A stretch of 25,236 nt of DNA from a virus. The stretch lies in the IMG/VR virus record IMGVR_UViG_3300007541_000195, positions 1-25,236 of that record; one strand, given 5' to 3'. Below are positions 6,409-25,112 of this stretch, piece after piece. The position numbers were made by a program, and so were the translations under genes. Numbering within the stretch: position 1 is the stretch's first letter; each line of letters begins with the position of its first letter. The notes beneath the pieces were generated by a model, which had not been told where the DNA came from, searched no databases, and worked only from the letters and a program-made list of their open reading frames with translations.

Positions 6409-6435
6409 TTATAGGAACACCGATTATTTATGCTA

Positions 6436-6474
6436 ATTCTAAGATAAATAAACTAAAATAAATCATCGTAGAAT
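6436..6474 (+). promoter_or_regulatory. Late promoter GATAAATAA inside a start-codon inverted repeat
   Basis: The late box lies at 6443-6451, 21 nt before ATG 6473. ATTCTA (6436-6441), just upstream of the box, is complementary to TAGAAT (6469-6474), which includes the A and T of the start codon. The stem is short and A/T-rich, but the arrangement repeats at other late promoters here. Confidence 0.6.
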
Positions 6475-8065
6475 GACTCAATATATGCAAAAAATACTAG
6501 AAGGCGTCAAAGCAAATACTGCGATTATGTCCGAACCTCTAGTAAAGATGCTAGTCGAATCGACTGATAAATCAATAGCATTGGGAGAGAATCTGCATTA
6601 TGTATACCTCCAATTTAGAAATGGACTATTTCAAATAAATGAAAAAATTGAGTCGGTCGAATTAGATTCTATCGTTTCTCAAATCAAGATAAACGAAGAT
6701 TCTTTAGATTCTAAAATCGATAGAATCGCTAGATCTGCAAATCTATCAAGTCGTCTTGAGATTATTAGAGAATCAAGCGCCTATTTGAATCCAGTAGTTC
6801 AAACTAAAACTTCTGAATTTGAGTCACATGTAAATAAAGGCATTCCTGATTTTGCATTATGCGAATCATTCGTTAATGTATTTAGCAATTTCACGTACGA
6901 TAAATCAATAAAAACTCAAGTAGAAGAAGTTAAAATGTTCATAAATGAGAACAAATCAACAACATTAATGCTTAATGCAATTTATCAAATGGCAGGCATT
7001 AATTCTAACGTATATGAGTCAGTTATTGAAGATCTTAAAACGATGTTAGTTAATGAAAGTTATTCAGCTAACATTCTTAAGCTTAAATATGGAAATACTG
7101 TTCCAGTCGTTAGCGAACTAATCGATCAATTACAAATCAATGAGTCGGCGAAGTCACATAACTTTAATCTAGGATCGGGCAATCATGATACAAATGTTGC
7201 AAATTTAATCGTACCTTCTCTTAAGATAAACGAAGGAGTGATTTTATATGTCAATGATCGCTTTTTATCCATTCAAGAGTCTAACTCACTTAGCGGAAAT
7301 GAAGTTAAAGTTCACGTCGATGAAAATTTCAAAATTGCAGACATTGATCCAGAATACGTTCGCAACAAATACAATTCTTTTTATCAAATTTGCGAATCAT
7401 ATTTTCATCTAGGATTCAAAAGAAGCTCTGATGGACTTGGCGTAGAGTCTAGCAACATTAGAAACCTTAAATTGGGCTTGAAATTGAACGAAGAAAACGC
7501 GTTAGATTTTTATGTAAATGACACGAAGATCGGAGATATTTCACAGGCAACTACACAAATTCATGAGTCTATTTCTCTACAGCCGACTAAAATCAAGGAG
7601 ATGGTAAATCATCTCTTAGAAAATTCAGGTGCCATCTATAATATTGAATTCATTAAAGAAGTTTGGAATGATCGAATTCTTAAAGAATCTATGATTTTTG
7701 ATCTAAATGGAACCTATTACGTTTGTGAAAAATTAAATCCTGTTGAGACTGAATGGAATAAGAAAACTCCAGTTGAGCTCTATGAATATTTTAAAGTTAA
7801 CTATCAATATGATATTCGACCGGCTCTTGGAGAGAAGCTTACAACTGATGAGCAACGAATCAAACATATTTCTGAACGTCAGACGCAGACTCTTGCAAAC
7901 ATTGAGAAATTAGAACTTTCGATCAAAAAGCTTGATGAAGCTTGCGCAAACTCAACAATCGACAAGGAGTATCGATCTCAGCTTGAAGAATTAAGAGAAT
8001 CACTAAGCCACTCTATAAATCAATTAAGAGACGAATACATTAGCCTTGATCTAATGAAGAAATAA
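6473..8065 (+). CDS. Putative prohead core / multi-site protease substrate (530 aa)
   Basis: No sequence family recognised. The protein carries a striking series of [hydrophobic]-x-E|[S/N/G] motifs at 13-39-residue spacing: MLVE29, QINE57, KINE75, IIRE100, ALCE131, FINE159, NVYE182, LVNE195, QINE224, KINE254, SIQE269, QICE308, KLNE340, QIHE365, ILKE405 and ELRE509. T4 gp21-type prohead protease cuts after Glu in [L/I]-x-E contexts, and the T4 gp22 scaffold shows a similar density of such sites. I infer a scaffold or core protein cut into peptides at maturation. Residues about 455-525 are a coiled coil. It is expressed from its own late promoter and followed by a terminator. A repetitive structural protein not processed at these sites is the alternative. 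Confidence 0.6.
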   Translation: MTQYMQKILEGVKANTAIMSEPLVKMLVESTDKSIALGENLHYVYLQFRNGLFQINEKIESVELDSIVSQIKINEDSLDSKIDRIARSANLSSRLEIIRESSAYLNPVVQTKTSEFESHVNKGIPDFALCESFVNVFSNFTYDKSIKTQVEEVKMFINENKSTTLMLNAIYQMAGINSNVYESVIEDLKTMLVNESYSANILKLKYGNTVPVVSELIDQLQINESAKSHNFNLGSGNHDTNVANLIVPSLKINEGVILYVNDRFLSIQESNSLSGNEVKVHVDENFKIADIDPEYVRNKYNSFYQICESYFHLGFKRSSDGLGVESSNIRNLKLGLKLNEENALDFYVNDTKIGDISQATTQIHESISLQPTKIKEMVNHLLENSGAIYNIEFIKEVWNDRILKESMIFDLNGTYYVCEKLNPVETEWNKKTPVELYEYFKVNYQYDIRPALGEKLTTDEQRIKHISERQTQTLANIEKLELSIKKLDEACANSTIDKEYRSQLEELRESLSHSINQLRDEYISLDLMKK

Positions 8066-8088
8066 TAAAACCAACTAATTCTTTAAAT

Positions 8089-8115
8089 AAAGCGACATTT
8101 TTTTGTCGCTTTTTT
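8089..8115 (+). terminator. Rho-independent terminator
   Basis: AAAGCGACA and TGTCGCTTT form a 7-9-bp stem around a T-rich loop, followed by a T run. It sits 24 nt after the 530-aa gene and closes the structural block. Confidence 0.9.
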
Positions 8116-8135
8116 AATTTTAAGAGAATTCATAG

Positions 8136-8141
8136 TATAAT
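8136..8141 (+). promoter_or_regulatory. Promoter -10-like element TATAAT
   Basis: CATAGTATAATTACC lies after the terminator and 35 nt before ATG 8176. AGTATAA-type boxes recur after other terminators or gene ends in this window, suggesting host-polymerase promoters. No convincing -35 is visible. Confidence 0.5.
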
Positions 8142-8175
8142 TACCATACAATAACTTTTTAAAAATTCACGCTAG

Positions 8176-8430
8176 ATGGAACAAATCAAAGTAGGTCCTA
8201 TTCAGACCGCTCCAAAGAATGCTGAAGTGACTCAGCTGATTCGTAGCCAAATCAACAAAATGAAGGTTGGCCAATTTTTCAAAGTCCATGGAGTTGACCG
8301 TCCGACTGTAAATTCATTACGAGCTTCGATCTCGTATTACAGCAAGAGCGACAATTTTGCAGTAACCACCAGGTTCAATTCGGCCGACTCATCAATGAGT
8401 ATTTACCGAACTCGAAAAAACTTAAAGTAA
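8176..8430 (+). CDS. Small hypothetical protein (84 aa)
   Basis: A single-gene unit between two terminators, with its own promoter-like element. The sequence has a helical N-terminal half with a VGQFFKVHGV stretch and a C-terminal part (SISYYSKSDNFAVTT...SIYRTRK) suggestive of two or three strands. I recall similar small proteins in large marine T4-like phages but cannot name the family. Basic overall, no Cys, no membrane segment. Possibly nucleic-acid binding. Confidence 0.75.
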   Translation: MEQIKVGPIQTAPKNAEVTQLIRSQINKMKVGQFFKVHGVDRPTVNSLRASISYYSKSDNFAVTTRFNSADSSMSIYRTRKNLK

Positions 8431-8439
8431 TTTCCAACA

Positions 8440-8479
8440 CTAGAAAAGCCACCACTAAAACTGGTGGCTTTTTTCTAGT
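8440..8479. terminator. Strong terminator hairpin with extended arms
   Basis: The core stem AGCCACCA/TGGTGGCT is followed by TTTTTT. Outside it, CTAGAAA and TTTCTAG extend the pairing, so the whole element is nearly symmetrical and may terminate in both directions. The next promoter box starts at its 3' edge. Confidence 0.9.
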
Positions 8480-8486
8480 ATAAAAT
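8479..8486 (+). promoter_or_regulatory. Promoter -10-like element TATAAAAT
   Basis: CTAGTATAAAATATAAG follows the terminator directly, 17 nt before ATG 8504. It probably drives the accessory operon starting with the methyltransferase. Confidence 0.5.
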
Positions 8487-8503
8487 ATAAGAAAATCATT
8501 AAA

Positions 8504-9319
8504 ATGGATACACGAATTGACTTTGAAACTGCCAAAAAATTCGATCAGCTTGAAAAAGTAGATTGGCCTACAAGATACGGCAATTTTCAATTTTACGTAA
8601 GAAAGGGTCTCACCGAAGTTCAATATAACGTCGGTCAAAATTTTTCAAGAGGACCAAACAGCGGTGAGTATATTTACCCATTTGTTTCTCCTAGAATCGG
8701 GCCTGCAATGAATTTGAACGAAGTTCTAAATCATGAAGATACGTGGATGGATATTGGTGGCCATCTAGGACTGTTTGCAATTCGTTTTGCTGCTCAATTT
8801 CCAAAAATCAAAAGAATCGTTTCATACGAAGCTCTTCCACATAATGTATCATTTGCGGTTGAAAATCTCAAACTGAATGCAGTTGATGACCGTTGCGAAA
8901 TGGTACAAAAAGCTATCGTGCCTAATCATGAACCTGAGATTGAATTCTTTATTTCATCGGATTCAGGAAAGCACTCAATTCTTCCGGTTCGAGGCCGTGA
9001 TAATATCAAGGTACCTGCAGTAAATATCAATGATGCTATCAAAGAAAATGGCGTAACTGCGATTAAGATGGATGTTGAGGGGGCCGAATACGATCTAATC
9101 AAAGCAGTTGATGATTGGTCAAACATTCGTGTTGCGATCATTGAATGGCATTTCAACGCAATGAAGTCGCTTAAGCCTGGTGTAGAGAACTCACGAGTGA
9201 ACATGTTCAATGAGATCATGGACATCATGAAAGCTAACTTTGACACCATTCGAGTTATTCCAGGTATAGAGCACAAGAAGACGTTTATCACTCACTTTGC
9301 GGCTATTAAAACAAAATGA
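8504..9319 (+). CDS. FkbM-family SAM-dependent methyltransferase
   Basis: Class I methyltransferase of the FkbM type, enzymes that usually O-methylate sugars or similar hydroxyl groups. The SAM-binding motif MDIGGHLG is at 82-89, the acidic second-strand motif YEALPHN at 108-114, and the family hallmark IKMDVEGAE at 187-195. At 271 aa it has the usual length plus an N-terminal extension of about 75 residues. It starts at ATG 8504 after a terminator-promoter junction, and its stop overlaps the start of the DNA glycosylase (ATGA). A putative glycosyltransferase follows three genes later, so methylation of a glycan (on virion, cell surface or hypermodified DNA) is the most natural guess. The substrate cannot be read from sequence. 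Confidence 0.88.
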   Translation: MDTRIDFETAKKFDQLEKVDWPTRYGNFQFYVRKGLTEVQYNVGQNFSRGPNSGEYIYPFVSPRIGPAMNLNEVLNHEDTWMDIGGHLGLFAIRFAAQFPKIKRIVSYEALPHNVSFAVENLKLNAVDDRCEMVQKAIVPNHEPEIEFFISSDSGKHSILPVRGRDNIKVPAVNINDAIKENGVTAIKMDVEGAEYDLIKAVDDWSNIRVAIIEWHFNAMKSLKPGVENSRVNMFNEIMDIMKANFDTIRVIPGIEHKKTFITHFAAIKTK

Positions 9320-9756
9320 TTGTAACTGAAAGCCCATATAGACTTTTGCAAGAGATATACAACGAGCATCCATGGAGGATGCTCGTTTGTTGTATAATGT
9401 TAAATTGCACAAATCGAAAACAAGTAGATCGTGTGCGATTTAATTTCTTTGAAAAATATCCATGCCCAGTGAAAGCCGTGCTTGCGGATACGTCTGAGAT
9501 GGCCGAGGTCATTGAACATCTTGGATTTAAAACAAAAAGGACAGCTACCTTAATTCGATTTTCAGAAGAATTCCTAAATAAGGATTGGACTGAGCCAATT
9601 GAACTGCATGGGATAGGAAAATATGGGCAGGACTCTTGGGAGATATTTCAAAAAAGTAATCTTGCGGTGGAACCAACTGATGGCGTGTTAAAGAAATATT
9701 TAGAATGGGCAAAACAACAATCTGTGTGTCCAATTAAAATAACTGATTTTGCATGA
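9316..9756 (+). CDS. MBD4-like HhH-GPD DNA glycosylase
   Basis: Single-domain DNA glycosylase closely resembling the C-terminal catalytic domain of eukaryotic MBD4 (mismatch T/U glycosylase). Shared landmarks are HPWRML near 18-23, LNCT (29-32, like LNRT in MBD4), the helix-hairpin-helix ELHGIGKYG (96-104) and the catalytic-Asp region VEPTDGVLKKY with Asp122 in the expected place. There is no C-terminal four-Cys iron-sulfur motif as in endonuclease III or MutY. At 146 aa it is about the size of the bare catalytic domain. It presumably removes T, U or a modified pyrimidine from DNA. Start overlaps the methyltransferase stop and stop overlaps the next small gene. The N-terminal coding region contains an 11-bp perfect inverted repeat. 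Confidence 0.85.
   Translation: MIVTESPYRLLQEIYNEHPWRMLVCCIMLNCTNRKQVDRVRFNFFEKYPCPVKAVLADTSEMAEVIEHLGFKTKRTATLIRFSEEFLNKDWTEPIELHGIGKYGQDSWEIFQKSNLAVEPTDGVLKKYLEWAKQQSVCPIKITDFA
9361..9387 (+). repeat. 11-bp perfect inverted repeat inside the glycosylase gene
   Basis: AACGAGCATCC (9361-9371) and GGATGCTCGTT (9377-9387) flank a 5-nt loop and are followed by TTGTTGT and a TATAAT box at 9393-9398. It looks like an intragenic terminator or attenuator hairpin next to a promoter-like element. Confidence 0.7.
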
Positions 9757-9926
9757 GAGATGCAACAAATATTAAAGACCTAAAATTTGAAGTGAATGGT
9801 CATCCAGCTAAAGCAAGCGATGTATGGCTCTCTCAAAATGGAGAATACTTCGTTTCATTAAACTACAACAAACTTTGGCTGAACGTGCATATTAATGATC
9901 TTAAAAATTACATAAAAGAAAAATGA
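9753..9926 (+). CDS. Small hypothetical protein (57 aa)
   Basis: This short frame has ATGA overlaps with both neighbours (ATG 9753 within the glycosylase stop; stop 9924-9926 overlapping the next ATG at 9923), which strongly supports it as a real gene in a translationally coupled chain. It starts MRDATNIKDLKFEVNGHPAK and ends NDLKNYIKEK, with a central Tyr/Trp-rich beta-like part. No family recognised. Confidence 0.7.
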   Translation: MRDATNIKDLKFEVNGHPAKASDVWLSQNGEYFVSLNYNKLWLNVHINDLKNYIKEK

Positions 9927-10219
9927 ATAAGTACTACGCTCGAAAAAAGGATGGTGAGATTCTTGTTAAAAATGATAATGGCACATATAGCTTCATTAGC
10001 TCTCTAAAACTGAATAGTATTTCTCAATACCCAGCAGAAGCTATCGTGAATAATCCTAATTTTATGCCGATACTTGAATCAGATTTTCCTACGATGGAAG
10101 CGCGTAGTGAACAATATTACGCGTTCTTATCTTGGCATACTCGGAGCGATGGCCATGGTGGAATAAAGGGAGGAACCTTTGAGGAATGGTTAAAACTAAC
10201 TAATCAGACTAAAATATAA
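9923..10219 (+). CDS. Small hypothetical protein (98 aa)
   Basis: Starts by ATGA overlap with the 57-aa gene. The N-terminus (YYARKKDGEILVKNDNGTYSF) looks like a small beta hairpin. The C-terminus contains an aromatic and Gly/His-rich stretch (WHTRSDGHGGIKGGTFEEWL). No recognised domain. Part of the methyltransferase-glycosylase-glycosyltransferase operon, so possibly an accessory factor. Confidence 0.7.
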   Translation: MNKYYARKKDGEILVKNDNGTYSFISSLKLNSISQYPAEAIVNNPNFMPILESDFPTMEARSEQYYAFLSWHTRSDGHGGIKGGTFEEWLKLTNQTKI

Positions 10220-10225
10220 GAGACT

Positions 10226-11308
10226 ATGAAGGCACTATACGCATATTTCGGTTTACTTGAACTACATACTATTGACTCTCCAGGACACTCTTTATACCAG
10301 CTTGGATTAATGGATCAACTTGCCGTTCAATTCTCAATAAAAAAGTTCGATTTCTATTCATATTATCCAAAGGAATTAATCGAAGACCATATCGCATCGA
10401 ACATCTTTCCTTCTACTCAGCTGGGAGAAATATTTGAAGAGACTCGAAATGAGTTAATCGAGCAATATGCTCTTGATCTAAATAATGTATTAGATAACGT
10501 CGTTGCCAAGAAATACGATAAACTTTTCCTAAAGGCTAGATTTAGAAATCTTTCTACACTATCTAAAAAATGGAAAGATGCGCTGGCTTTTGAAACGATA
10601 ATCGATACTGCAGTCGGGGCTGGCTATTCAAAGGATCAAATAATCATATTGGATACAGATCTTTCATTGACTGAAAAATTTGTTAATGACTATCGAGAAA
10701 AGATAACTATTTTGACTCCGTCGATTGATATTCCTGGAATATCTGAACGCTTTCTTAAAAAGTGCGTCGATTCTAATTTAAGTAACTACGAAACGCTTAA
10801 AAATAGAAAAGGATTAGGAATAGTATTTTATGGCAACATAAATACTTCTTCATACAAGTCAGGTAACTCAAAAACTAAACTCTTACCTGAGATCTTATTT
10901 CAACTTAGCGGAGATGGCGTGTTGGGTCAACTTCTTGGAGAATTAACGATCATTTCTAAACCCGCCGATGCTCTTGGTTTCATGTCAGAATCTTCAAAAA
11001 ACATAAACAGGTGCGATCGGCCTCGAATATGGGATTGTCTTGAAAGGGATACCGTGATGCTTAATATCACCAAAGACAAGTACGACACGACTAAATTTAT
11101 TCCAGCTAGAATATATGAAGCCTTAATATTTGGCCTTATTCCAGTTTCATATAAGTTTGATTGGCTGTGTCCGGCTTTTTCATTCAATAATACTGAAGAC
11201 TTGGTCGAGATATTGAAATATCTTGATGAATGTTCAATTGACGACCTTAAGGGTGCATATACTCATTTCGTTAATAGTTATTTAGAGCACAGCTTGCGAG
11301 ATAAATAA
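10226..11308 (+). CDS. Probable GT-B-type glycosyltransferase
   Basis: Likely glycosyltransferase. The C-terminal part (about 270-345) carries the pattern of GT-B nucleotide-sugar-binding domains: MLNITKDKYDTTKFIPARIYEALIFGLIPVSYK-type sequence at 278-310, with Glu298 at the usual acidic position and G303-LIPVS following, then the downstream FSFNNTEDLVEIL element. The N-terminal half (1-200) is consistent with the acceptor domain but shows no diagnostic motif. At 360 aa the length is normal. Last gene of the accessory operon, and its final codons GAT AAA TAA are also the next late promoter. Acceptor unknown: DNA base, virion glycan and host surface are all possible. A CgeB-like assignment is a reasonable alternative. 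Confidence 0.6.
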   Translation: MKALYAYFGLLELHTIDSPGHSLYQLGLMDQLAVQFSIKKFDFYSYYPKELIEDHIASNIFPSTQLGEIFEETRNELIEQYALDLNNVLDNVVAKKYDKLFLKARFRNLSTLSKKWKDALAFETIIDTAVGAGYSKDQIIILDTDLSLTEKFVNDYREKITILTPSIDIPGISERFLKKCVDSNLSNYETLKNRKGLGIVFYGNINTSSYKSGNSKTKLLPEILFQLSGDGVLGQLLGELTIISKPADALGFMSESSKNINRCDRPRIWDCLERDTVMLNITKDKYDTTKFIPARIYEALIFGLIPVSYKFDWLCPAFSFNNTEDLVEILKYLDECSIDDLKGAYTHFVNSYLEHSLRDK

Positions 11309-11325
11309 TAAGAAAGCACTCGCAA
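11294..11325 (+). promoter_or_regulatory. Late promoter GATAAATAA in a start-sequestering inverted repeat
   Basis: The late box (11300-11308) overlaps the preceding gene's Asp-Lys-stop codons. TTGCGAG (11294-11300) pairs perfectly with CTCGCAA (11319-11325), which ends one base before ATG 11327. The 18-nt loop holds the promoter, so RNA initiated at the late promoter would lack the left arm. Confidence 0.75.
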
Positions 11326-11326
11326 C

Positions 11327-13198
11327 ATGCGCCACATCGCTAGTTATGAAACGAATGAGCAATCTGTCGCTCTAATCAATACATATTTCTCAGAATATTC
11401 CCAAATTTTTGAGAATGCAGTATCCATTCCAGCGATACGCGCTGAATTGAGATTTATTGATAAAATTGAACAGTGTTTACCTAAGGATGAAGTATTTGAC
11501 TTCCACTTTGATACTATACTTAATAAAGGAGGAAAAGCAATCTCAGAATATTACTCGAGCCTTTCTGGTAAAAACTCCCAGTTCATTAATGATATCAAAA
11601 AGCATTTTACTAGCGATCAACTAGGGATCCTCAATGAGGCTATTTCTGAATTAAAGGAAGTATTACATGGTCTAACCTTTAATCAATTAAATGAACAGGT
11701 GGCCGGGCAGGCATCCGACATCTTATCGGATATTCGACGTCGTTTACCTGAATTAAGCAAAACGCCACCATCCATTAAAGGTTCTGCAACAAATGATGCT
11801 ATTTCTACTCCAGAAGAATTCGATAAAGCTATTGCTGGCGAAGGATACACTCCTCAGGAGGGAGGAGTTCTTAACTTTCTAAAGCAGCTTTGGAACCTTC
11901 TTTCTGAGGACGGCTCTCCACTTGGGATACTCCATCTTGTTCTTGATTTAGTTGGCCTATTTGATTTTGTTGGAATCGGCGTCATTGCAGATGTTTTAAA
12001 TGCGATCATCTACTTCATTCGAGCCGGTGTTGATGACAAAGAACGTCGAGGCGAATTTATGTTACTTGGAGCAATATCATTGATTGCTGGAGTTATTCCA
12101 GTTGCAGGCGATGTCCTTAAGGCTCTAAAACCTGCTGCTCGAGGAATGTCAAAAGTAATGATCGAAACCATTGCACATGGAAGCAAAGGGGGAGTAGAAG
12201 TTCTTGCAAAACTTCCACCTAAAGAAGCCGCAAAAAGCCTGCAAGGTTTACGATTCATCGGTAAAAATATCGGACCTGCTTTTGCAAAGGCTACTAATCT
12301 ATTAAGTAAATTTTTCGATACGTTTTTAGCAAAAGTAGTCGGATGGGTCCCATTCATCGGTAAACCGCTAAAATCATTTTTTGAAGGTATCGGAAAGACT
12401 TTTTCCAAAATGGCAGATACTTTTGATAACTTTGGAAAAAACTTTGCTAAGACTGAGGCCGAATATATCGAAATGACAATCAAGGGCGCCAATAAGTCTA
12501 TCGAAAAGGCAGTCAAGGCCGGTGGAAAGCTTGAGGTAGACGCTGCTGGAAAATCAGTAGAGGTCTTTAGTAAATCGGGTAGATCCTTAGGCACATATCC
12601 AGTTGATGTATTAACAGATCCAAAGGTATGGAATAAAAAGGCTCCAGGTATGTGGAAAATGGACGCACCTACTCCTACCCAGGCGGCTAGATATACGAAC
12701 GGTATAATTAATGGCGCGCCGATTCTATCAATGGGCCTTGCTAAACTTGCCGGTAAAAATATAAAACGAGTGGCCAGATTGACATCCTTTGTTGGAAAAC
12801 AAATCATTAAATTAACGACTGGAGACGATTGGCAGTCGGCCGGTCATACTGAATCTGAAGCTGAATATTATGGAAGTGCCGCTTTTTGTGAATGGATTCA
12901 TAATGAGCTTAAAAAAGAAAAAGAGGAAACTGGAGCAACTTATGTTCCTGCTCTAATTCTAGATGGAAATGATAAAGAGACATTCGATCGTGTGGTCAAA
13001 TATCAAAATAATTATGCAAAATTATTTGGCCAACCGACGATTATTCCAGTGATCAAAGAAAAAGCCGACGCTAAGACTCAAAAAGAATTTGATGAATTCA
13101 TGGATGCCATTAAAAATGGAGCAAAGTCCAATGAAAACAAAAATGTGTCTGAATCGCTGCGACTCAGACACATAATCTCATTTTCAGATTTTAAGTAA
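11327..13198 (+). CDS. Large hydrophobic protein with pre-toxin-like helices and tag-like termini (623 aa)
   Basis: No close family recognised. Residues about 200-265 form a hydrophobic helical block (LVGLFDFVGIGVIADVLNAI, then ISLIAGVIPVAGDVLKAL) that strongly resembles the hydrophobic pre-toxin segments found before toxin domains in polymorphic toxins. More Gly/Ala/Lys amphipathic helices follow to about 400, then a globular C-terminal region (about 400-600). The N-terminus (MRHIASYETNE|QS) and last 14 residues (after VSE609, ending RHIISFSDFK) both resemble prohead-targeting tags. I infer an internal head protein possibly injected with DNA and inserting into membranes. Expressed from a late promoter, it ends 2 nt from the convergent 529-aa gene. 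A toxin or pore activity is inference. Confidence 0.65.
   Translation: MRHIASYETNEQSVALINTYFSEYSQIFENAVSIPAIRAELRFIDKIEQCLPKDEVFDFHFDTILNKGGKAISEYYSSLSGKNSQFINDIKKHFTSDQLGILNEAISELKEVLHGLTFNQLNEQVAGQASDILSDIRRRLPELSKTPPSIKGSATNDAISTPEEFDKAIAGEGYTPQEGGVLNFLKQLWNLLSEDGSPLGILHLVLDLVGLFDFVGIGVIADVLNAIIYFIRAGVDDKERRGEFMLLGAISLIAGVIPVAGDVLKALKPAARGMSKVMIETIAHGSKGGVEVLAKLPPKEAAKSLQGLRFIGKNIGPAFAKATNLLSKFFDTFLAKVVGWVPFIGKPLKSFFEGIGKTFSKMADTFDNFGKNFAKTEAEYIEMTIKGANKSIEKAVKAGGKLEVDAAGKSVEVFSKSGRSLGTYPVDVLTDPKVWNKKAPGMWKMDAPTPTQAARYTNGIINGAPILSMGLAKLAGKNIKRVARLTSFVGKQIIKLTTGDDWQSAGHTESEAEYYGSAAFCEWIHNELKKEKEETGATYVPALILDGNDKETFDRVVKYQNNYAKLFGQPTIIPVIKEKADAKTQKEFDEFMDAIKNGAKSNENKNVSESLRLRHIISFSDFK
13144..13172. 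terminator. Hairpin inside the 3' end of the 623-aa gene at the convergent junction
   Basis: TGTGTCTGA (13144-13152) and TCAGACACA (13164-13172) form a perfect 9-bp stem. Inside it TCG/CGA gives three more pairs after one mismatch. It lies 26 nt before two convergent stop codons and may limit read-through between them, although no T run follows. Confidence 0.5.
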
Positions 13199-13200
13199 TC

Positions 13201-14790: not shown

Positions 14791-14792
14791 TG

Positions 14793-15872: not shown

Positions 15873-15888
15873 TTGAATAGCTTTATTT

Positions 15889-15911
15889 TTATTTATCTGA
15901 TCGATAAATAA
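15889..15911. promoter_or_regulatory. Divergent palindromic pair of late promoters
   Basis: Minus-strand GATAAATAA (15897 to 15889) and plus-strand GATAAATAA (15903 to 15911) sit back to back, 5 bp apart, forming one imperfect palindrome. They lie 16 nt and 19 nt before the ATGs at 15872 (minus) and 15931 (plus). Confidence 0.8.
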
Positions 15912-15930
15912 CAAAAAGCTTGATTCTAAT

Positions 15931-16767: not shown

Positions 16768-17270
16768 TGAAAAAAATAATTACTTTTAACGAATTTATGA
16801 ATGAGGCTTGGGAAGACATTGATTTTTCTGTGAAAAGAAAAGCAGCCGGCGTCGCAATAATTTGGGAAGGCCAGATTTTACTCGTACATCCTACTGGAGC
16901 AAGCTGGCAAAAAAGCTCATTTGGAATACCTAAAGGAGGAATTAATGACGGTGAAGATGTTCTTGAAGCAGCTATTCGCGAACTTAGAGAAGAGACTGGA
17001 ATCGTACTTAATTCTACTGAGCTTGATCCTGAACCATTAGTCGCAAACTCATATAAACCAAATGGGTCTCTCGATCGCCAGCTAATATATTTTACTAAAG
17101 CTATACGATCGCTTGAGGAGATAGGTCTAGCTTCGACAACTGTTCCTGAGCATCAACTACAACTCGAAGAAATAGATTGGGCCGGTTTTGTGCCAATCGA
17201 TCGTGCATATCCTAAAATGCACCGGTCTCAATTAATTATATTGGATCGCGCACGATATATAAAAATATAA
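16767..17270 (+). CDS. Nudix hydrolase with prohead-targeting-like N-terminus
   Basis: Nudix enzyme (hydrolyses nucleoside diphosphates linked to another moiety). The complete Nudix box G-x5-E-x7-REL-x-EE-x-G-I is at residues 57-79, with catalytic Glu75/Glu76. The core begins near residue 27 (AAGVAIIW). The first 14 residues, MKKIITFNEFMNE|A, do not belong to the fold and closely parallel the T4 internal protein III tag (YQEFIAE|A). Processing would release a mature enzyme starting at Ala14. It is translationally coupled to the 278-aa gene and shares the late promoter. The late, packaged context points to a virion-delivered enzyme rather than an early metabolic one. The substrate (NAD-, ADP-ribose- or cap-type) is not readable. 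Confidence 0.92.
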   Translation: MKKIITFNEFMNEAWEDIDFSVKRKAAGVAIIWEGQILLVHPTGASWQKSSFGIPKGGINDGEDVLEAAIRELREETGIVLNSTELDPEPLVANSYKPNGSLDRQLIYFTKAIRSLEEIGLASTTVPEHQLQLEEIDWAGFVPIDRAYPKMHRSQLIILDRARYIKI

Positions 17271-17282
17271 AGATATTAATCT

Positions 17283-18407: not shown

Positions 18408-18440
18408 TCGACTAAGTACAAGATTGAAAAATCATATCTA

Positions 18441-18983
18441 ATGGATCAAGAAAAAATTGAAGTGATCGATACTAATCTTGAAGAAGCGTCTGCTGAGCTT
18501 CTAGAAACTGTTGAATCGACTGAAGATCAATCCCTAGCTGAAAGTTTGCCTAAGGCTCCTGAGGAACTTCTTTCGACTCTTACCCAATCTCGAATGGGAC
18601 AGTTTGGCGTAAAAATTTCTCATTCTGATCTTAAGTATATCAAAAACGTCATTTCCAACAAGCTCGAATGGACGGGTCCAAATGAGGCATATTTGACTAT
18701 CATTTCTACTCTAACTATCGATAACGCCTTGGGAGAAATTGCTGAGCTTACTAAAGATCAAAATGAGCCGGTTCAGATTAAATTACCTGCAGCGACTATT
18801 GAGTCTATTGATTTCTTCTTAAATAAAGTTTCTGGAAAGGGTATTCAGGCGGCTCAACGGCTTTTTTCAGCAGTAATGCAGTTTAGACAGCCAATTGGAG
18901 CAATTAAGAAATTGGACAATGAGATCGCTGCTCTTCAGGAAGAGATAAAACTTGCAAAAAGCAAAGAAAGTACAGATAAATAA
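18441..18983 (+). CDS. Acidic helical protein, possible head assembly factor (180 aa)
   Basis: No family recognised. The N-terminal 45 residues are very acidic and disordered (Glu/Ser/Thr-rich), the middle (about 60-150) is a compact helical region, and the end (about 155-180) is a Lys/Glu coiled coil. There is no tag-like peptide. Its final codons GAT AAA TAA form the late promoter of the next gene. Position between packaged proteins and the acidic core protein suggests a scaffold, chaperone or core partner. Confidence 0.65.
   Translation: MDQEKIEVIDTNLEEASAELLETVESTEDQSLAESLPKAPEELLSTLTQSRMGQFGVKISHSDLKYIKNVISNKLEWTGPNEAYLTIISTLTIDNALGEIAELTKDQNEPVQIKLPAATIESIDFFLNKVSGKGIQAAQRLFSAVMQFRQPIGAIKKLDNEIAALQEEIKLAKSKESTDK
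18975..18983 (+). promoter_or_regulatory. Late promoter GATAAATAA overlapping a stop codon
   Basis: The box coincides with the Asp-Lys-stop codons of the 180-aa gene and lies 18 nt before ATG 19002. A direct repeat GAAAGTAC flanks this region (18967-18974 and 19005-19012). No start-sequestering hairpin is evident here. Confidence 0.75.
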
Positions 18984-19001
18984 TAAAAAACTATTTTCAA
19001 A

Positions 19002-19361
19002 ATGAAAGTACATAACTTTGCAGGGTTCATGAAAGCTCGAAAGAGAGTAAACGAATCTGAATTAGGCGACATGCCTGAAAACGAATACGGAGCATATCCT
19101 GAGCAAACAATGGATTTTGGAGCAAATCCTGAAGAAGGAGAAGAGCTTGAGGATCTAGAGAACGATGAGCTAGAGAACGATGAGCTAGAGAATGAAGAGG
19201 AAGAAGTAACCATGGAAGATCTTAAAGCCATGATTGAGGATCTTACTGAAAGGATTGAAGCTCTGGAAGGCGGCGATGAAGAAGCCGAGGAAGGCGAAGA
19301 AGCCGAGGAAGGCGAAGAAGCTGAAGAAGGCGAAGAAGCTGAAGAAGGCGAAGAAGTCTAA
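19002..19361 (+). CDS. Very acidic prohead core-like protein with Glu repeats (119 aa)
   Basis: Resembles the T4 gp67-type prohead core protein in character: small, with an extremely acidic Glu-rich tail. The N-terminus MKVHNFAGFMKARKRVNE|S is basic and hydrophobic and ends in a candidate protease site at Glu18. Then come two LENDE units plus a LENEE unit (15-bp DNA period), a short coiled coil (MEDLKAMIEDLTERIEALEG), and four EEAEEG units (18-bp DNA period) to the end. In T4, proteolysis of such a protein yields acidic internal peptides that stay with the DNA. Similarity is in layout and composition, so homology is not proven. Confidence 0.7.
   Translation: MKVHNFAGFMKARKRVNESELGDMPENEYGAYPEQTMDFGANPEEGEELEDLENDELENDELENEEEEVTMEDLKAMIEDLTERIEALEGGDEEAEEGEEAEEGEEAEEGEEAEEGEEV
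19154..19198 (+). repeat. Three 15-bp tandem units
   Basis: CTAGAGAACGATGAG at 19154 and 19169 and a diverged copy at 19184 encode LENDE, LENDE and LENEE. Confidence 0.85.
19278..19349 (+). repeat. Four 18-bp tandem units
   Basis: Units at 19278, 19296, 19314 and 19332 encode EEAEEG. The first two are identical (GCC GAG), and the last two are identical to each other with GCT GAA at the same positions, a pattern of stepwise duplication. Confidence 0.9.
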
Positions 19362-19391
19362 TAGTGTTCGACTTGCCTGCAAAGACGAATA

Positions 19392-19451
19392 TACTTAAAA
19401 ATAAGAAAATGGGGGAATGGTTCTCCCATTTTTTTGATAAATAATTAAGTA
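19392..19451 (+). promoter_or_regulatory. Late promoter GATAAATAA within a nested inverted repeat
   Basis: The late box (19436-19444) is only 7 nt from ATG 19452. TACTTAA (19392-19398) is complementary to TTAAGTA (19445-19451), which abuts the start codon. The terminator hairpin is nested between the arms. Late RNA would be nearly leaderless and lack the left arm. Confidence 0.6.
19406..19435 (+). terminator. Rho-independent terminator
   Basis: ATGGGGGAA and TTCTCCCAT pair (one G-U) around a 3-nt loop, with A and T runs on either side. The downstream T run joins the next late-promoter box at 19436. Confidence 0.88.
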
Positions 19452-19889
19452 ATGCCGATCTGTGATGGACATACTATAATTCCTCTATTCGAAGGATTTT
19501 GTCGAAAAACCCAAGTCGACGGGCTTAACATTATCGCAAAAATAGGCAATCACGACTTTAAATTAAAGGTCTTGTCTACTCCAGTAAGTCAAATGAAAGG
19601 GTATATGGATAGTCAAGAGACGCCTAGGGACGGAGAAGGAATGTTATTCGTATATGATAGGCCTCTCCCTTTAGAATTTTGGATGAAAAATGTTCCATTT
19701 GACTTAGATATCATCTTCTTTGACGAAGATCGAAATTATATCGGGCACCAAACTATGAAAGCCGGCGCTGGAATTCCAGATGATCGTCTTGTTCGTTATC
19801 GTTCCAATAAAAAAGCTCAATTTGCCGTAGAAGTAGCGGCCGGTTGGTGCGATACAAATTTAACAAAAGACTCTCAACTCAAGTTTTAA
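19452..19889 (+). CDS. DUF192 family protein
   Basis: Matches the DUF192 (PF02643) pattern. The signature runs from GMLFVYDRPLPLEFWMKNV (about 64-82) through DLDIIFFDEDRNYIG to AVEVAAGWC near the end, covering the whole usual domain. The function of this family is not established. The 40-residue N-terminal extension (MPICDGHTIIPLFEGFC...) is extra. The start is uncertain: ATG 19452 lies only 7 nt from the late-promoter box, so the mRNA may be nearly leaderless. The next ATG is well inside the domain. No signal peptide is visible, unlike many cellular members. Confidence 0.8.
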   Translation: MPICDGHTIIPLFEGFCRKTQVDGLNIIAKIGNHDFKLKVLSTPVSQMKGYMDSQETPRDGEGMLFVYDRPLPLEFWMKNVPFDLDIIFFDEDRNYIGHQTMKAGAGIPDDRLVRYRSNKKAQFAVEVAAGWCDTNLTKDSQLKF

Positions 19890-19900
19890 TGCGAATAGCT

Positions 19901-19916
19901 TGTATAGTATTATATA
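19901..19916 (+). promoter_or_regulatory. Promoter-like A/T element before ligase
   Basis: TGTATAGTATTATATA lies 15 nt before ATG 19932 and contains TATAGT and TATTAT boxes similar to AGTATTAT at 23751. Probable host-type promoter for the ligase. No clear -35. Confidence 0.4.
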
Positions 19917-19931
19917 AGCAAATCTGAGAGA

Positions 19932-21224
19932 ATGCTAATCCGCGATAATTTTGAAAAACTTCGACTTTTTGTCGAAGCAATGAACGAATCAAATTCAACA
20001 AATCATAAGGTAAAAGTATTAGAAGAATATACGCAAGATTTATTTATTGCAGGCGTTCTACATTATACTTACACTCCCTATAAGCAATATGGAGTCACCT
20101 CAAAGAATCTTGAAAAAAGGGGCGACCTTGTAGGCTTGCCATTTACTCCAAACATCACATTTTTTGAATTACTTGATAAATTAACTGATCGCGTCCTTAC
20201 TGGACATTCTGCGATACAGGCAGTAAATCGTTTTATCCAAGATAATGCTGAATACAAGGACCTGATTTATCAGGTGATTGATCGAAATCTTGAGACTCGA
20301 GCAACGACTACTTTAATTAACCGAGTCATTCCCAATCTTATCCCCACGTTTAATGTTGCCCTGGCACATGATATCACAAAGGTCAACGGGATAGATCCTC
20401 TCGATGGTACCTGGTATTGCTCAAGAAAACTGGACGGGATACGATGTATCGCAATAATTAGGGACGGAAAAATCAAGTTCTTTTCAAGAAATGGAAAAGA
20501 GTTTGAAACGTTAGGAGTCGTTCAAGATCGAATAGAGGCTCTTGGATTAACTGATTGTGTTCTTGATGGAGAAATATGTCTCATGAAAGAAGATGGATCA
20601 GATGACTTCCAGGGAATCTTGAAAGAGATTCAGCGAAAGAATCACACCATTAAAAATCCAAGATACTGGATATTCGATGTTCTCACTCTAGAAGAATTTG
20701 ATTCTACTTCAGGCGAAGTCCCATTAGCTGATCGACTGGCTCGACTCAATATCGGAAAAGATCCAGTGCTTGCATCGCTTCCACAATATCTTATTGAAAC
20801 TGAAGACGACTTTGAAAAATTCAAAGAAAGAGCAAAGTCCTTTGGGTGGGAGGGACTTATTCTTCGTCAGAATATTGGTTATGAAGGCAAGCGGTCTAAA
20901 GGCATGCTAAAGATTAAAGAATTCTTCGATGCTGAATATACGGTAGAATCAGTAATCATGGAAGACCAGCGAATCATAGTCGATGGTCAAGAAAAGGTTG
21001 AAGAGGTGTTAAGCGCTGTGATAATCAGACATAAGGGCGATCCGGTTCGAGTGGGCAGCGGATTTAACCTTAACGAACGCCGAAAATATTATGCAGATCC
21101 AAATCTTATTTTAGGCAAAACGATCACGGTCCAATATTTTGAGGAGACCGTCGATCAGGAAGGACGAAATTCATTACGCTTTCCAGTATTTAAGGTAAAC
21201 CATGGAGAATCTCGTAGTATATAA
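19932..21224 (+). CDS. ATP-dependent DNA ligase
   Basis: Nick-sealing polynucleotide ligase with all nucleotidyltransferase motifs: I KLDG with adenylated Lys166, III FFSRNGKEF (183-191), DGE (212-214), IIIa YWIFDVL (245-251), IV EGLILR (307-312) and V MLKIK (325-329), followed by an OB-fold (about 333-430) ending FPVFKVNHGES. Residues 1-140 form a helical N-terminal domain. At 430 aa it is a little shorter than T4 gp30 (487 aa). It is preceded by a promoter-like element rather than a late box, suggesting earlier expression for replication and repair. The enzyme class is certain. Whether it is the direct counterpart of T4 gene 30 is inferred. Confidence 0.95.
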   Translation: MLIRDNFEKLRLFVEAMNESNSTNHKVKVLEEYTQDLFIAGVLHYTYTPYKQYGVTSKNLEKRGDLVGLPFTPNITFFELLDKLTDRVLTGHSAIQAVNRFIQDNAEYKDLIYQVIDRNLETRATTTLINRVIPNLIPTFNVALAHDITKVNGIDPLDGTWYCSRKLDGIRCIAIIRDGKIKFFSRNGKEFETLGVVQDRIEALGLTDCVLDGEICLMKEDGSDDFQGILKEIQRKNHTIKNPRYWIFDVLTLEEFDSTSGEVPLADRLARLNIGKDPVLASLPQYLIETEDDFEKFKERAKSFGWEGLILRQNIGYEGKRSKGMLKIKEFFDAEYTVESVIMEDQRIIVDGQEKVEEVLSAVIIRHKGDPVRVGSGFNLNERRKYYADPNLILGKTITVQYFEETVDQEGRNSLRFPVFKVNHGESRSI

Positions 21225-21230
21225 AGATAT

Positions 21231-21413
21231 ATGAGTTTCAATAAAAAATATCTAGGAAATCTAGACGACGTCAAAAATCTTTTTGAAAGACTTGGAGAAG
21301 ACGAATTCGTTAAGATATTCAAAAAAGCCGATGCTCTTATTGGAAAATCAGAAGCAATCGAATTTGTTAATAACATAATGAAAAATTACTACGATAAGAA
21401 CGAAAATCAATAA
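21231..21413 (+). CDS. Small hypothetical protein (60 aa)
   Basis: Starts 6 nt after the ligase stop and is probably cotranscribed with it. Helical, charged, with no motif I recognise (FNKKYLGNLDDVKNLFERLG at the start). Ends 4 nt before the DUF4494-like gene. Confidence 0.65.
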   Translation: MSFNKKYLGNLDDVKNLFERLGEDEFVKIFKKADALIGKSEAIEFVNNIMKNYYDKNENQ

Positions 21414-21417
21414 CCAT

Positions 21418-21621
21418 ATGATGTATTATATCGCAAAAGTAAAATTTGAAACGGTCGACGACAATACTGGCCGAATTCGTAAACTAAATGAGCAGTATCT
21501 AGTTGAAGCTCAATCAATTTCAGATGCAGAAGCAATGCTTAACGAAAAATTTAAGGACTCGATTGCAGATTTTTCAGTGGTAAGCATACAAGAGTCCAAG
21601 ATCATAGGCATCATCAAGTAA
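21418..21621 (+). CDS. Small DUF4494-like protein (67 aa)
   Basis: Resembles DUF4494, small proteins known to me mainly from Bacteroidota and their phages: YYIAKVKFETVDDNTGRIR followed by EQYLVEAQSISDAEAML, a strand-strand-helix, then a final strand pair. The frame begins ATG ATG (21418, 21421), and either may be used. Role unknown. It supports a Bacteroidota host, but the assignment is from memory. Confidence 0.6.
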   Translation: MMYYIAKVKFETVDDNTGRIRKLNEQYLVEAQSISDAEAMLNEKFKDSIADFSVVSIQESKIIGIIK

Positions 21622-21633
21622 ATTTCTTAAACT

Positions 21634-21942
21634 ATGGCGGGAAAATTACCAACCTCGATCGCTGAGGAAGTATACAAAGTCTTAGAAAAATTTGCAGAAG
21701 TAAAGTCAGATTATTATTCTAGGGAAGAATTTATTTTCCATTTCGGCGTTCTCAAAGGAAAATCCATTGATTTTAAATTAAATTGCTTTGACGATGTTGC
21801 CAGAACGTTCTATTGTACCGATGATGGTAAAATGTGGATGACTGGAAAAGGCAGTGGGCGGGTAAATAGAATTTTAGATAAGATTGCAGGCACGCTTACT
21901 CAACAGATAGGCGAATTTACAGTGACTCGCCATGGAGGTTAA
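21634..21942 (+). CDS. Small hypothetical protein (102 aa)
   Basis: Alpha/beta protein with a helix (SIAEEVYKVLEKFAEV) and two or three strands (FIFHFGV, SIDFKLNCF, RTFYCTDDGKMWMTG). No catalytic motif. Its 3' end overlaps the next gene by 11 nt, indicating coupling. Part of the ligase-downstream group. Confidence 0.7.
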   Translation: MAGKLPTSIAEEVYKVLEKFAEVKSDYYSREEFIFHFGVLKGKSIDFKLNCFDDVARTFYCTDDGKMWMTGKGSGRVNRILDKIAGTLTQQIGEFTVTRHGG

Positions 21943-22363
21943 AGTCCCAAATATCAAAGATACCCAGTTTGATTCAACCCTATTTAAAGCGGTATCCGAC
22001 GGGCTTACCGAACTCTTCCAAGAGACCGGAAAGTGGCCCGATTCAATTATCTTCAGCGGCACGCTTGGAAACGAGCTCTATAATCATGTGTTCAATAAGA
22101 ATTGGGACCTAAATAAGTTTGGACCTGTGTGTTTACCTGGAGGAGCCAATAAGATTCGGATTGAATACACCAAACCCATTAACCAAATTGAAGACAATAA
22201 CTCTCCAATAATGGTCGACGATTTAAACGGAAGACAGGTCAATGGCGTCATCGGAAGCGAATCGATGGCTCGAATAATGAGTTCATACGCACAGCCTTCA
22301 CTGAAAATAGAAAGAACCGTTCGACCCCATTACGAAATAAGATTAGTCCGTTTAAATAAATAA
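21932..22363 (+). CDS. Hypothetical protein (143 aa)
   Basis: Overlaps the 102-aa gene. The sequence mixes helix (FDSTLFKAVSDGLTELFQET) and strand segments and ends in a strand (YEIRLVRLNK). No membrane segment and no recognised motif. Its last codons AAT AAA TAA overlap the next late promoter. A virion or assembly role is possible. Confidence 0.68.
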   Translation: MEVKVPNIKDTQFDSTLFKAVSDGLTELFQETGKWPDSIIFSGTLGNELYNHVFNKNWDLNKFGPVCLPGGANKIRIEYTKPINQIEDNNSPIMVDDLNGRQVNGVIGSESMARIMSSYAQPSLKIERTVRPHYEIRLVRLNK

Positions 22364-22385
22364 TACAAACAACTGTATTATTTAT
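22356..22385 (+). promoter_or_regulatory. Late promoter AATAAATAA forming one arm of a 12-bp start-sequestering hairpin
   Basis: ATAAATAATACA (22356-22367) and TGTATTATTTAT (22374-22385) are perfectly complementary with a 6-nt loop. The left arm is essentially the late promoter (22355-22363), and the right arm covers A and T of the start codon (ATG 22384). Read-through RNA would hide the start. Late RNA begins around the loop and would not. Confidence 0.85.
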
Positions 22386-23175
22386 GTCCACTAAGATTGT
22401 ACACGTACCTCAACACAAGGAAGTAGCTTCAACTCCAAGCACACCCGATTCAGGATATAGTAAAATTTATGTAAAGTCGGACGGTCTTTGGTATTACTTA
22501 GATGATGCTGGATCAGAAAGTCTGCTTGGAGGAGGCGGTGGAGGAACATGGGGTTCAATCACAGGCACTCTTTCTGACCAGACAGATTTACAAAATGCTC
22601 TTGATGACAAAGTCGATGACACTCGAGAGATTAACACAGCGTCGAATAGCGGACTTGGAGGCGGTGGCAATTTGACCGCTGACCGTTCCTTTGTCCTCAA
22701 CGTGAATAATTTAACTAGTTTTACGGAAGCGGTCGCCGCTAACGACACCATTGCAATATACAATGCATCGACTGGAGCAACTCAAAAGGCCACTTTACTA
22801 TTAGCAGTAGCGGCAGGTCAGAAATACGAAGATACGTTAGAGATTCAACCCTTTAATCGAACAACGAACGTTGCTGTCGTGGCTGAGACCGAACAGGGAG
22901 TCACATGTCCATATGCCGGTAAGATTCAAAAAGTTGTTTATAGAGCATTTACCCCAGGGGGCAGAACCGGCTCCACTGCCATTCGATTATTGATCGATGG
23001 AGTGCCTTTTAATACGACTCTCGCAAACCTGGACTCGACCACCGGTATTGGGGTTGCAGCACCGGCAACACCGAATACCGTTAATGAGGGTTCTACAATA
23101 ACCGTTGAAGTTGGCTCAATACAGTCACCAGCTCCAATAGGTCTTGTTGTGACCGTTGAGATTCTAAGATCATGA
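22384..23175 (+). CDS. Fibre-like structural protein (263 aa)
   Basis: Phage fibre-type protein. The N-terminal part contains a Gly6 hinge (about 51-56) followed by WGSITGTLSDQTDLQNALDD (about 58-76), a motif common in tail-fibre and appendage proteins, and a GGGGNLTADRSFVL element (about 92-105). The C-terminal 120 residues are beta-rich (lectin or jelly-roll-like), ending in strand VGLVVTVEIL-type sequence. No catalytic residues. Expression under a hairpin-controlled late promoter suits a structural protein. It could be a tail fibre tip, a short head fibre or an Hoc-like decoration. It overlaps the next gene by ATGA. Confidence 0.75.
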   Translation: MSTKIVHVPQHKEVASTPSTPDSGYSKIYVKSDGLWYYLDDAGSESLLGGGGGGTWGSITGTLSDQTDLQNALDDKVDDTREINTASNSGLGGGGNLTADRSFVLNVNNLTSFTEAVAANDTIAIYNASTGATQKATLLLAVAAGQKYEDTLEIQPFNRTTNVAVVAETEQGVTCPYAGKIQKVVYRAFTPGGRTGSTAIRLLIDGVPFNTTLANLDSTTGIGVAAPATPNTVNEGSTITVEVGSIQSPAPIGLVVTVEILRS

Positions 23176-23741
23176 GATTCGTAAGGGAAAGGTTCAAGTA
23201 TCTAGGGCAAGAGACTCTTCCTAGCTTTTGGAAGCCGTATTTCAGTATGTCAATCGTCGGTCAAGAATATACTGTGCTTAGGGATTTACAACCCAACGTG
23301 CGAGTAATTAGGCAGAGATCCGTTGAAACGGTTGAAGCCGAGGATCTAATAATGTCCGATACTGAGTATGAATATTTTACGAATGAACCCTTTTTTGAAT
23401 TATGTCGTTCTTATAATCGGCCCAAAGTCCTATCGGTCGGATACGGCATTGGTTTAATCATTCCAGAAATGGAAAAACAATCGGCCGATCTTACTATAAT
23501 CGAAAAATACCAAGAAGTATTGGATCTTGAGGAATCGATTGAGGATATTAAAGCAAAACATACGATCATAGTCTCGGATTTCAACAAGATGGATCTTTCC
23601 TCTCTTGGAAAATACGATGTAATTTTTATTGATTTTACCGAAGATCTTTTACATACTCATGAATCGCTTAGTGAGCTATTGGCAGATGGTGGCCAAATTT
23701 GTTATTGGAGACATAAATTACCTTCAAATTTTAAGAGTTAA
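23172..23741 (+). CDS. Class I SAM methyltransferase-fold protein (189 aa)
   Basis: Rossmann methyltransferase-like fold, nearest in feel to spermidine synthase-type proteins: motif I VLSVGYGIGL (86-95), motif II acidic end of strand 2 at Glu111 (LTIIEKYQEV), motif III-like SDFNKM and strand 4 YDVIFIDF (148-155). Substrate unknown. It may be a methyltransferase or a non-catalytic relative, because the post-strand-4 motif DFTEDLL lacks the NPPY/DPPY of DNA N-methyltransferases. Start overlaps the fibre gene stop, so it is cotranslated with a structural protein and may modify it. Confidence 0.75.
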   Translation: MRFVRERFKYLGQETLPSFWKPYFSMSIVGQEYTVLRDLQPNVRVIRQRSVETVEAEDLIMSDTEYEYFTNEPFFELCRSYNRPKVLSVGYGIGLIIPEMEKQSADLTIIEKYQEVLDLEESIEDIKAKHTIIVSDFNKMDLSSLGKYDVIFIDFTEDLLHTHESLSELLADGGQICYWRHKLPSNFKS

Positions 23742-23750
23742 AACCGGCTT

Positions 23751-23758
23751 AGTATTAT
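23751..23758 (+). promoter_or_regulatory. Promoter-like element AGTATTAT
   Basis: CTTAGTATTATATCC lies 9 nt after the methyltransferase-like gene and 6 nt before ATG 23765. It matches the AGTATAA/AGTATTAT boxes near 8135, 8478 and 19905. Confidence 0.4.
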
Positions 23759-23764
23759 ATCCAC

Positions 23765-23881
23765 ATGATACGATCTTTAAGAAAATGGATTGACTTAAAT
23801 ATAGGATGGTTTTTCATAAATGGAAATAAAGTCCACATTTGGGAAAATTATTTGAAAAAAAAGTATCCAAAAAGTTTTTAA
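23765..23881 (+). CDS. Small basic hypothetical protein (38 aa)
   Basis: Short frame starting MIRSLRKWIDLNIGWFF and ending KKKYPKSF, rich in Trp, Lys and aromatic residues. It has a promoter-like box just upstream and lies in an otherwise gene-free stretch, which supports it modestly. The central hydrophobic part (LNIGWFFI) is too short for a membrane span. Confidence 0.45.
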   Translation: MIRSLRKWIDLNIGWFFINGNKVHIWENYLKKKYPKSF

Positions 23882-23905
23882 GTTGAAAAAAGTTAGTAAT
23901 TTAGC

Positions 23906-23937
23906 ACTGTCTTTGAAACTTTTTACCCAAGGACAGT
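23906..23937. repeat. 10-bp inverted repeat abutting a late promoter
   Basis: ACTGTCTTTG (23906-23915) and CAAGGACAGT (23928-23937, one G-U in RNA) flank a 12-nt loop. The last base is the first T of the TATAAATAA box, so the element may be an operator, or a terminator for the 38-aa gene. Confidence 0.6.
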
Positions 23938-23945
23938 ATAAATAA
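23937..23945 (+). promoter_or_regulatory. Late promoter TATAAATAA
   Basis: Exact T4-type TATAAATA core, the best match to the T4 late consensus in the window. 21 nt before ATG 23967, the standard spacing here. Confidence 0.75.
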
Positions 23946-23966
23946 GTAAAAATTAAGCAACTTCAC

Positions 23967-24053
23967 ATGTCACGCACGCAAAATATCGTAATGTTCTCAG
24001 AGAGCCCACTATTTATGGATGGGAAAGATGAGATCTGTGTGACTACTAGTTGA
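23967..24053 (+). CDS. Possible micro-protein (28 aa), or a short non-coding late RNA
   Basis: Frame MSRTQNIVMFSESPLFMDGK... ending VTTS lies between an exact late promoter (23937) and a strong terminator (24076). The unit is only about 150 nt. The start has correct promoter spacing, but the peptide matches nothing I know, so the RNA itself may be the product. Confidence 0.4.
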   Translation: MSRTQNIVMFSESPLFMDGKDEICVTTS

Positions 24054-24075
24054 GAATAACGTTCTTTTAATAAAG

Positions 24076-24104
24076 AAACCTCAACTTAACGTTGAGGTTT
24101 TTTG
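24076..24104 (+). terminator. Rho-independent terminator
   Basis: AAACCTCAAC (24076-24085) and GTTGAGGTTT (24091-24100) form a perfect 10-bp stem with a 5-nt loop, followed by a T run. It ends the short late unit. Confidence 0.92.
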
Positions 24105-24148
24105 TTTTATAACGAGTTTTTAGTTCACGCAGAAAGCAAATAGTTCGA

Positions 24149-24175
24149 ATGATAAATAATAAAAAGAATTATCAT
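24149..24175 (+). promoter_or_regulatory. Late promoter GATAAATAA in a start-sequestering inverted repeat
   Basis: ATGATAA (24149-24155) pairs perfectly with TTATCAT (24169-24175). The right arm covers the A and T of ATG 24174, and the left arm overlaps the late box (24151-24159). This is the arrangement known for T4 I-TevI, also an endonuclease gene. Confidence 0.75.
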
Positions 24176-24919: not shown

Positions 24920-24926
24920 AAATTAT

Positions 24927-24999: not shown

Positions 25000-25019
25000 C
25001 AGAAAAAGTTCTTTGAAAT

Positions 25020-25095: not shown

Positions 25096-25112
25096 CACTA
25101 AAAAAATTACAT

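Follow-up and report, generated by a model that had tools for sequence, protein, structure and literature searches.

The window analysed here, by which we mean the whole of a 25,236-base virus fragment, carries late promoter boxes (ATAAATAA), some of which lie within inverted repeats that reach the start codon of the next gene. The original prediction listed five such repeats and held that the phage uses them as a general rule to forbid early translation of late genes; the pattern that we find is one of selective use. The stretch from 4441 to 12440 has no DNA match among deposited phages. Relatives of the gene at 1005-2018 occur at 24-31% identity in phages of Chryseobacterium and Tenacibaculum, in Lak (Prevotella) phages and in uncultured huge phages, and at about 48-67% identity in about 80 IMG/VR contigs, and a gp55-type late sigma gene is present in three of the six relatives searched (G008, G017 and G020; loci L261-L263). 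The window therefore belongs to a T4-like phage, probably of Bacteroidota. As originally stated, Shine-Dalgarno sites are absent: none of the 28 window starts has the motif, and late leaders carry it at shuffled background. The clearest hairpin lies beside a transfer RNA (tRNA) cluster, where the features are as follows.

24143-24148, plus strand: GTTCGA, a tRNA T-loop-like sequence adjoining the late box, perhaps an operator or a mimic of the homing site
24149-24155, plus strand: left arm ATGATAA, complementary to 24169-24175
24152-24159, plus strand: late promoter box ATAAATAA, within the hairpin
24169-24175, plus strand: right arm TTATCAT, over the first two bases of the start codon
24174-24857, plus strand: endonuclease gene (PHROG 945; annotated homologs)
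24842-25189, plus strand: four tRNA genes (Asp, Lys, Met, Met), directly 3' of the endonuclease gene (ARAGORN, Rfam)

The 3' end of the endonuclease open reading frame (ORF) shares the first 16 bases of tRNA-Asp (24842-24857). Its product joins an N-terminal Cys-rich, zinc-ribbon-like part to a C-terminal TnsA-like PD-(D/E)xK nuclease; it has no Pfam hit, and its best PHROG is 945, endonuclease. A nuclease fold with PD-(D/E)xK-like conserved residues is present, E130, D171, E185 and K187 being invariant among homologs, and a structure predicted without the rows of two annotated phages matches TnsA in Foldseek (1t0f, E value 2.7e-3, probability 1.00), the model itself having a predicted template modelling score (pTM) of only 0.54. 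A GIY-YIG or HNH motif was not found in the product, which resembles an HNH PHROG only weakly, in its N-terminal part (E value 1.8e-4). tRNA clusters accompany the homologs at all 33 loci scanned, including those of Escherichia phage F25 and Acinetobacter phage AM101, and this scatter among the tRNA clusters of unrelated phages suggests mobility.

We express the strength of a start-codon hairpin as ddG, the predicted cost of opening the bases from ATG-4 to +4 in read-through RNA minus that in RNA beginning 12 nucleotides (nt) downstream of the first box base; T4 gene e, the textbook example, served as positive control and scores 3.6-5.8 by this measure. When each site is folded with and without its left arm, as had been proposed, 24152 (6.4), 22356 (6.2) and 11301 (4.4) stand out. 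The box at 24152-24159 sits inside the repeat 24149-24175, for which ddG reaches 6.4-6.8 kcal/mol with a left-shuffled P of 0.02; opening the 24174 start is predicted to cost 7.3 kcal/mol in read-through RNA vs 0.4 kcal/mol in late RNA. The compensatory changes that the original prediction proposed to look for in related phages are seen here, and the arms co-evolve in 32 homologs. In the arm-swap test, which compares the ddG of each homolog's own left arm with that of left arms exchanged between homologs over 20,000 permutations, own arms average 3.98 and swapped arms 1.53 kcal/mol, and no permutation reaches the observed mean. The stem sequences vary, from ATGATAA/TTATCAT in the window to TTGATAT/ATATCAA in L063, the first homolog found, which keeps the 13-nt loop and alters two stem pairs on both sides. 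The AM101 arms TTCCATTATAAA/TTTATAATGGAA surround a TATAAATA, and the F25 arms TTCTCCATGAAT/ATTCATGGAGAA form a stem of 12 base pairs (bp) that hides GGAG. A few endonuclease homologs (L228, L234 and L247) have no lock by the ddG measure. In the 207-kb relative G008, a SegE-like GIY-YIG endonuclease gene beside a tRNA has a 13-bp stem around its box, and this gene and that of the window endonuclease, whose products are unrelated to each other, hold the top two ddG values of 214 distinct promoters. At the level of sequence, a T4-type lock at 24174 is thus well supported.

A short motif next to the endonuclease promoter bears on how the repeats might act. In 24 of 30 homologous regions (L221-L259), against 1.7 expected, GTTCRA precedes the endonuclease ATG, usually by 28-46 nt, and in five homologs it is duplicated as the hairpin arms. 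The operator to which I-TevI binds overlaps the late promoter of its gene and mimics the I-TevI homing site (PMC2988022), and GTTCRA resembles that operator. The repeats could by this precedent work in DNA, as operators for the endonuclease or another regulator, with the hairpin a by-product. We judge this improbable, because homologs differ in stem sequence yet keep the stem paired and in place at the initiation region, because F25 hides GGAG, and because one clade of a 175-amino-acid (175-aa) late gene, described below, has a separate stem for its ATG. A tentative extension, less likely than not to be right, would have the TnsA-like endonuclease family, as a mobile one, spread among the tRNA clusters of unrelated phages through recognition of the universal GTTCRA T-loop sequence. 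Its control would have two layers, a T-loop-like operator next to the late promoter and a start-codon hairpin surrounding it, rebuilt in each host with new sequences, and Bacteroidota phages would have recruited the lock for a few late genes of their own.

We posit instead, and consider it probable, that a T4-type lock is used selectively, being well supported in the window only at 24174 and plausible at the 11327 and 22384 genes. In read-through RNA, bases upstream of or inside the ATAAATAA box would pair with the leader as far as the start codon, thereby closing it, whereas RNA from the late promoter, starting inside the hairpin, would lack the left arm and leave the start codon exposed. At 24174, such a lock would silence a mobile-type nuclease in early transcripts of the tRNA operon.

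The device itself is known. In T4 I-TevI and segB and in Aeh1 mobE, the late promoter lies inside a hairpin (PMC2988022, PMC3014915); the window endonuclease likewise has its late promoter in a hairpin-forming segment, as do segB, I-TevI/II/III and mobE, and segB, too, sits within a tRNA cluster. In the window as in the T4 homing endonucleases, the right arm would close the initiation region only in read-through RNA. Unlike those enzymes, the window enzyme is by sequence neither GIY-YIG nor HNH but TnsA-like PD-(D/E)xK, and its hairpin, unlike theirs, pairs the AUG itself, presumably because the phage has no Shine-Dalgarno sites. T4 gene e also holds a late box in a hairpin that ends at the start codon, with energies on the same scale, but hides mainly the Shine-Dalgarno sequence; e is a lysis gene. 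No ATAAATAA box precedes the window endolysin gene (17283). The late promoters of T4 (TATAAATA, gp55 sigma) share the box core and position, and relatives of the window have a gp55-family gene. The matches in G008, G017 and G020 span only positions 3-116 of the 181-position profile in open frames of 132-136 aa, and the C-terminal part of T4 gp55 may be missing from them; phrog_12791, another late-sigma family, matched nothing, the controls included. The consensus over 240 distinct late promoters, ATAAATAA-T/A-A-A-A-A-A up to the assumed +1, is longer than that of T4. What the window adds is a further case of the T4 device, attached to an endonuclease family outside GIY-YIG and HNH, in a phage without Shine-Dalgarno sites: covariation points to a T4 late-only lock in genes where the start codon is the target.

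The same mechanism is well supported, again by sequence comparison, for the 175-aa late gene of relatives outside the window. It occurs at 77 loci, 24 distinct ones having a late box directly upstream, and across 13 distinct clusters own arms give 3.19 vs 0.65 kcal for swapped arms, a difference reached by 0 of 20,000 permutations. The stems of different clades have no sequence in common (CGTCAGTA, TTCGTAAA, GATTTC and ATTTGGT). The clade with 37-nt spacing has two stems, one around the promoter and another, further out, that takes in the ATG; both show compensating double changes, and in two members two of the outer base pairs are broken. On inspection, no such stem was seen in orthologs that lack a late box. 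The window gene at 42-479 was considered as an ortholog and rejected. The hairpin of the 175-aa gene may serve insulation from other late transcripts, because the gene lies among late genes, and hairpins in general might insulate in this way or mark RNA processing, rather than block early translation. In line with such an account, an intrinsic terminator and a strong start-codon hairpin coincide at 0 of 307 junctions, an exclusion that at p=0.07 is suggestive only. The endonuclease hairpins speak against it, since they are found in tRNA clusters, which from the example of T4 should be transcribed early; we regard it as possible but rather doubtful.

The selective lock has to be weighed against its use at nearly every late gene that read-through transcription reaches. 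All five repeats of the original prediction are perfectly complementary at their coordinates. Their right arms had been said to touch or cover the ATG: ATG bases are indeed covered by 22374-22385 and 24169-24175, the first two also by 6469-6474, and 19445-19451 abuts the ATG, but 11319-11325 stops one base before it. The five sites are half of the 10 ATAAATAA boxes that lie at most 30 nt from an ATG in the window. The other five are as follows, all but the fourth plus-strand.

2214-2221, plus strand: late promoter box, hairpin-free, omitted from the earlier list
18976-18983, plus strand: late promoter box, hairpin-free, omitted from the earlier list
23938-23945, plus strand: late promoter box, hairpin-free, preceding a 28-aa ORF and a terminator, omitted from the earlier list
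15889-15896, minus strand: late promoter box of a divergent pair, weak hairpin (ddG 3.0), omitted from the earlier list
15904-15911, plus strand: late promoter box of the same divergent pair, hairpin-free

Our wider sample comprises 240 distinct late promoters, which come from 85 related records. Their motif is ATAAATAA, then T/A, then an A-run (index 9-13 from the first box base) that reaches the assumed +1 region (through index 13), and box-to-ATG distances of 22-30 nt are commonest. In the stem test, left arms are permuted among promoters of matched G+C. The window alone shows no excess of ATG-touching stems (at least 6 bp, 4 vs 2.5, p=0.16; at least 7 bp, 2 vs 1.4), but the wider set shows a modest one, with 29 stems of at least 7 bp against 19.2+-3.2 expected (p=0.005). 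Nine control positions from +10 to +50 give little or no excess; two reach p=0.025, none in excess at 8 bp or longer. A ddG of at least 5 kcal is found at 9 of the 214 distinct promoters against 3.5 expected. From these two excesses it follows that about one promoter in twenty (~5%) has a real hairpin. Chance alone, in A/T-rich leaders that commonly hold 6-7 bp inverted repeats with nothing functional in the window, would fit the window counts, which match permutation, and the two of five sites that do not rise above shuffles; it sits badly with arms that co-evolve in the endonuclease homologs and the 175-aa family and with the 12-bp repeat at 22356, which leader shuffles never reproduce, and we consider it quite unlikely.

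The excess in the wider set is also what would favour a hairpin at nearly all late genes, an account that we find very hard to credit. Eight of 10 ortholog groups tested lack arm coupling (in the sheath-like gene group, with 21 distinct members, the arm-swap p is 0.29), and a ninth, that of the 11327 gene, shows a trend; in the 6473 group, hairpins fall below expectation (z -2.7, n=47). Half of the window promoters have no hairpin. Divergent promoters, which no upstream gene reads through and which had been predicted to lack it, do not differ significantly from the rest, strong hairpins occurring at 5 of 58 divergent vs 28 of 224 co-directional promoters. A general rule over late promoters is rejected by these family-level tests, and what stands is selective use: the genes that truly carry the lock, namely the tRNA-cluster endonucleases and the 175-aa late gene, are set apart from many late genes without it, and arm-swap tests offer sequence-level criteria for finding such switches in metagenomic phages.

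Two further window sites are plausible locks.

11294-11300, plus strand: left arm TTGCGAG (ddG 4.4-4.8, left-shuffled P 0.025)
11301-11308, plus strand: late box of the 11327 gene
11319-11325, plus strand: right arm CTCGCAA, 1 nt short of ATG 11327
22356-22367, plus strand: left arm ATAAATAATACA, 12 bp, which is the late box itself
22374-22385, plus strand: right arm TGTATTATTTAT over the AT of ATG 22384, also a minus-strand ATAAATAATACA box

The 11327 and 22384 genes both lie downstream of candidate early/middle operons. For the 11327 gene, the arm-swap p over 15 distinct orthologs is 0.135, suggestive but not proof. Hairpins occur in two clades of its family (one, besides that of the window, independent) and terminators precede the box in seven members, never both together; terminators before the late box are seen at this junction in L098, L100, L104, L107 and L114. 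A single-sequence search with the 11327 protein found no relatives, and a search from a clade member gave five. At 22356, ddG is 6.2 and leader shuffling never matches it (P 0/200); left-shuffling is uninformative, as the left arm is the box, and a late-promoter ortholog is missing from the set. An equally good reading of the repeat is that it makes a second late box, convergent with the first.

Several points weigh against the selective lock. At 11301 and 22356, the upstream stop codon falls inside the box, as it often does at ATAAATAA boxes, so that a translating ribosome would melt the left arm. The F25 and AM101 stems end 4-5 nt before the ATG and hide a Shine-Dalgarno-like site, not the AUG; the window endonuclease stem is only 7 bp, and several others are A/U-rich and marginal. 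The late +1 is assumed, by analogy with T4, to lie some 12 nt past the start of the box, and T4 soc, also a positive control, has a ddG of only ~1, the measure thus missing some known cases. The position of the 175-aa gene among late genes makes a block to early read-through no obvious purpose there. Hairpins are found at 8 of 40 junctions with an upstream early-type promoter vs 5 of 63 others, which is only suggestive (p=0.07); a restriction of hairpins to junctions after such promoters was rejected, the trend having p=0.07-0.2.

The two remaining repeats of the original list are not supported, and the neighbourhood of one of them shows another kind of junction.

6436-6474, plus strand: inverted repeat ATTCTA...TAGAAT around the 6444 box (ddG 0.4, P=0.6)
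19392-19451, plus strand: inverted repeat TACTTAA...TTAAGTA around the 19437 box, flanking a terminator (ddG 2.9, P=0.40)
19407-19438, plus strand: intrinsic terminator (stem and T-run) immediately before the 19437 box; orthologs have one as well, of different sequence
19906-19916, plus strand: candidate early/middle promoter AGTATTATAT, before a DNA ligase operon running into the 22384 gene

The 6444 hairpin is missing from nearly all orthologs (25 distinct members, arm-swap p=0.84), and the 6436/6469 repeat is chance. The 19392 repeat would likewise be a coincidence, the gene behind the 19437 box being insulated by the terminator rather than a hairpin. Intrinsic terminators directly precede late boxes at 19 of 224 co-directional vs 0 of 58 divergent junctions. 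The candidate early operon from 19906 (DNA ligase onward), upstream of the 22384 gene, fits early read-through into that gene. Candidate early/middle promoters, at 8134, 19906 and 23751 and in relatives, have TTTTAA ~17 nt before T(T/A)GTAT(A/T)ATA, 25-45 nt from the ATG. In G008, the late box of a gene for a peptidoglycan-binding protein (170535), probably an endolysin, lies in a 7-bp start-codon hairpin that recalls T4 gene e but is not seen in orthologs of the gene.

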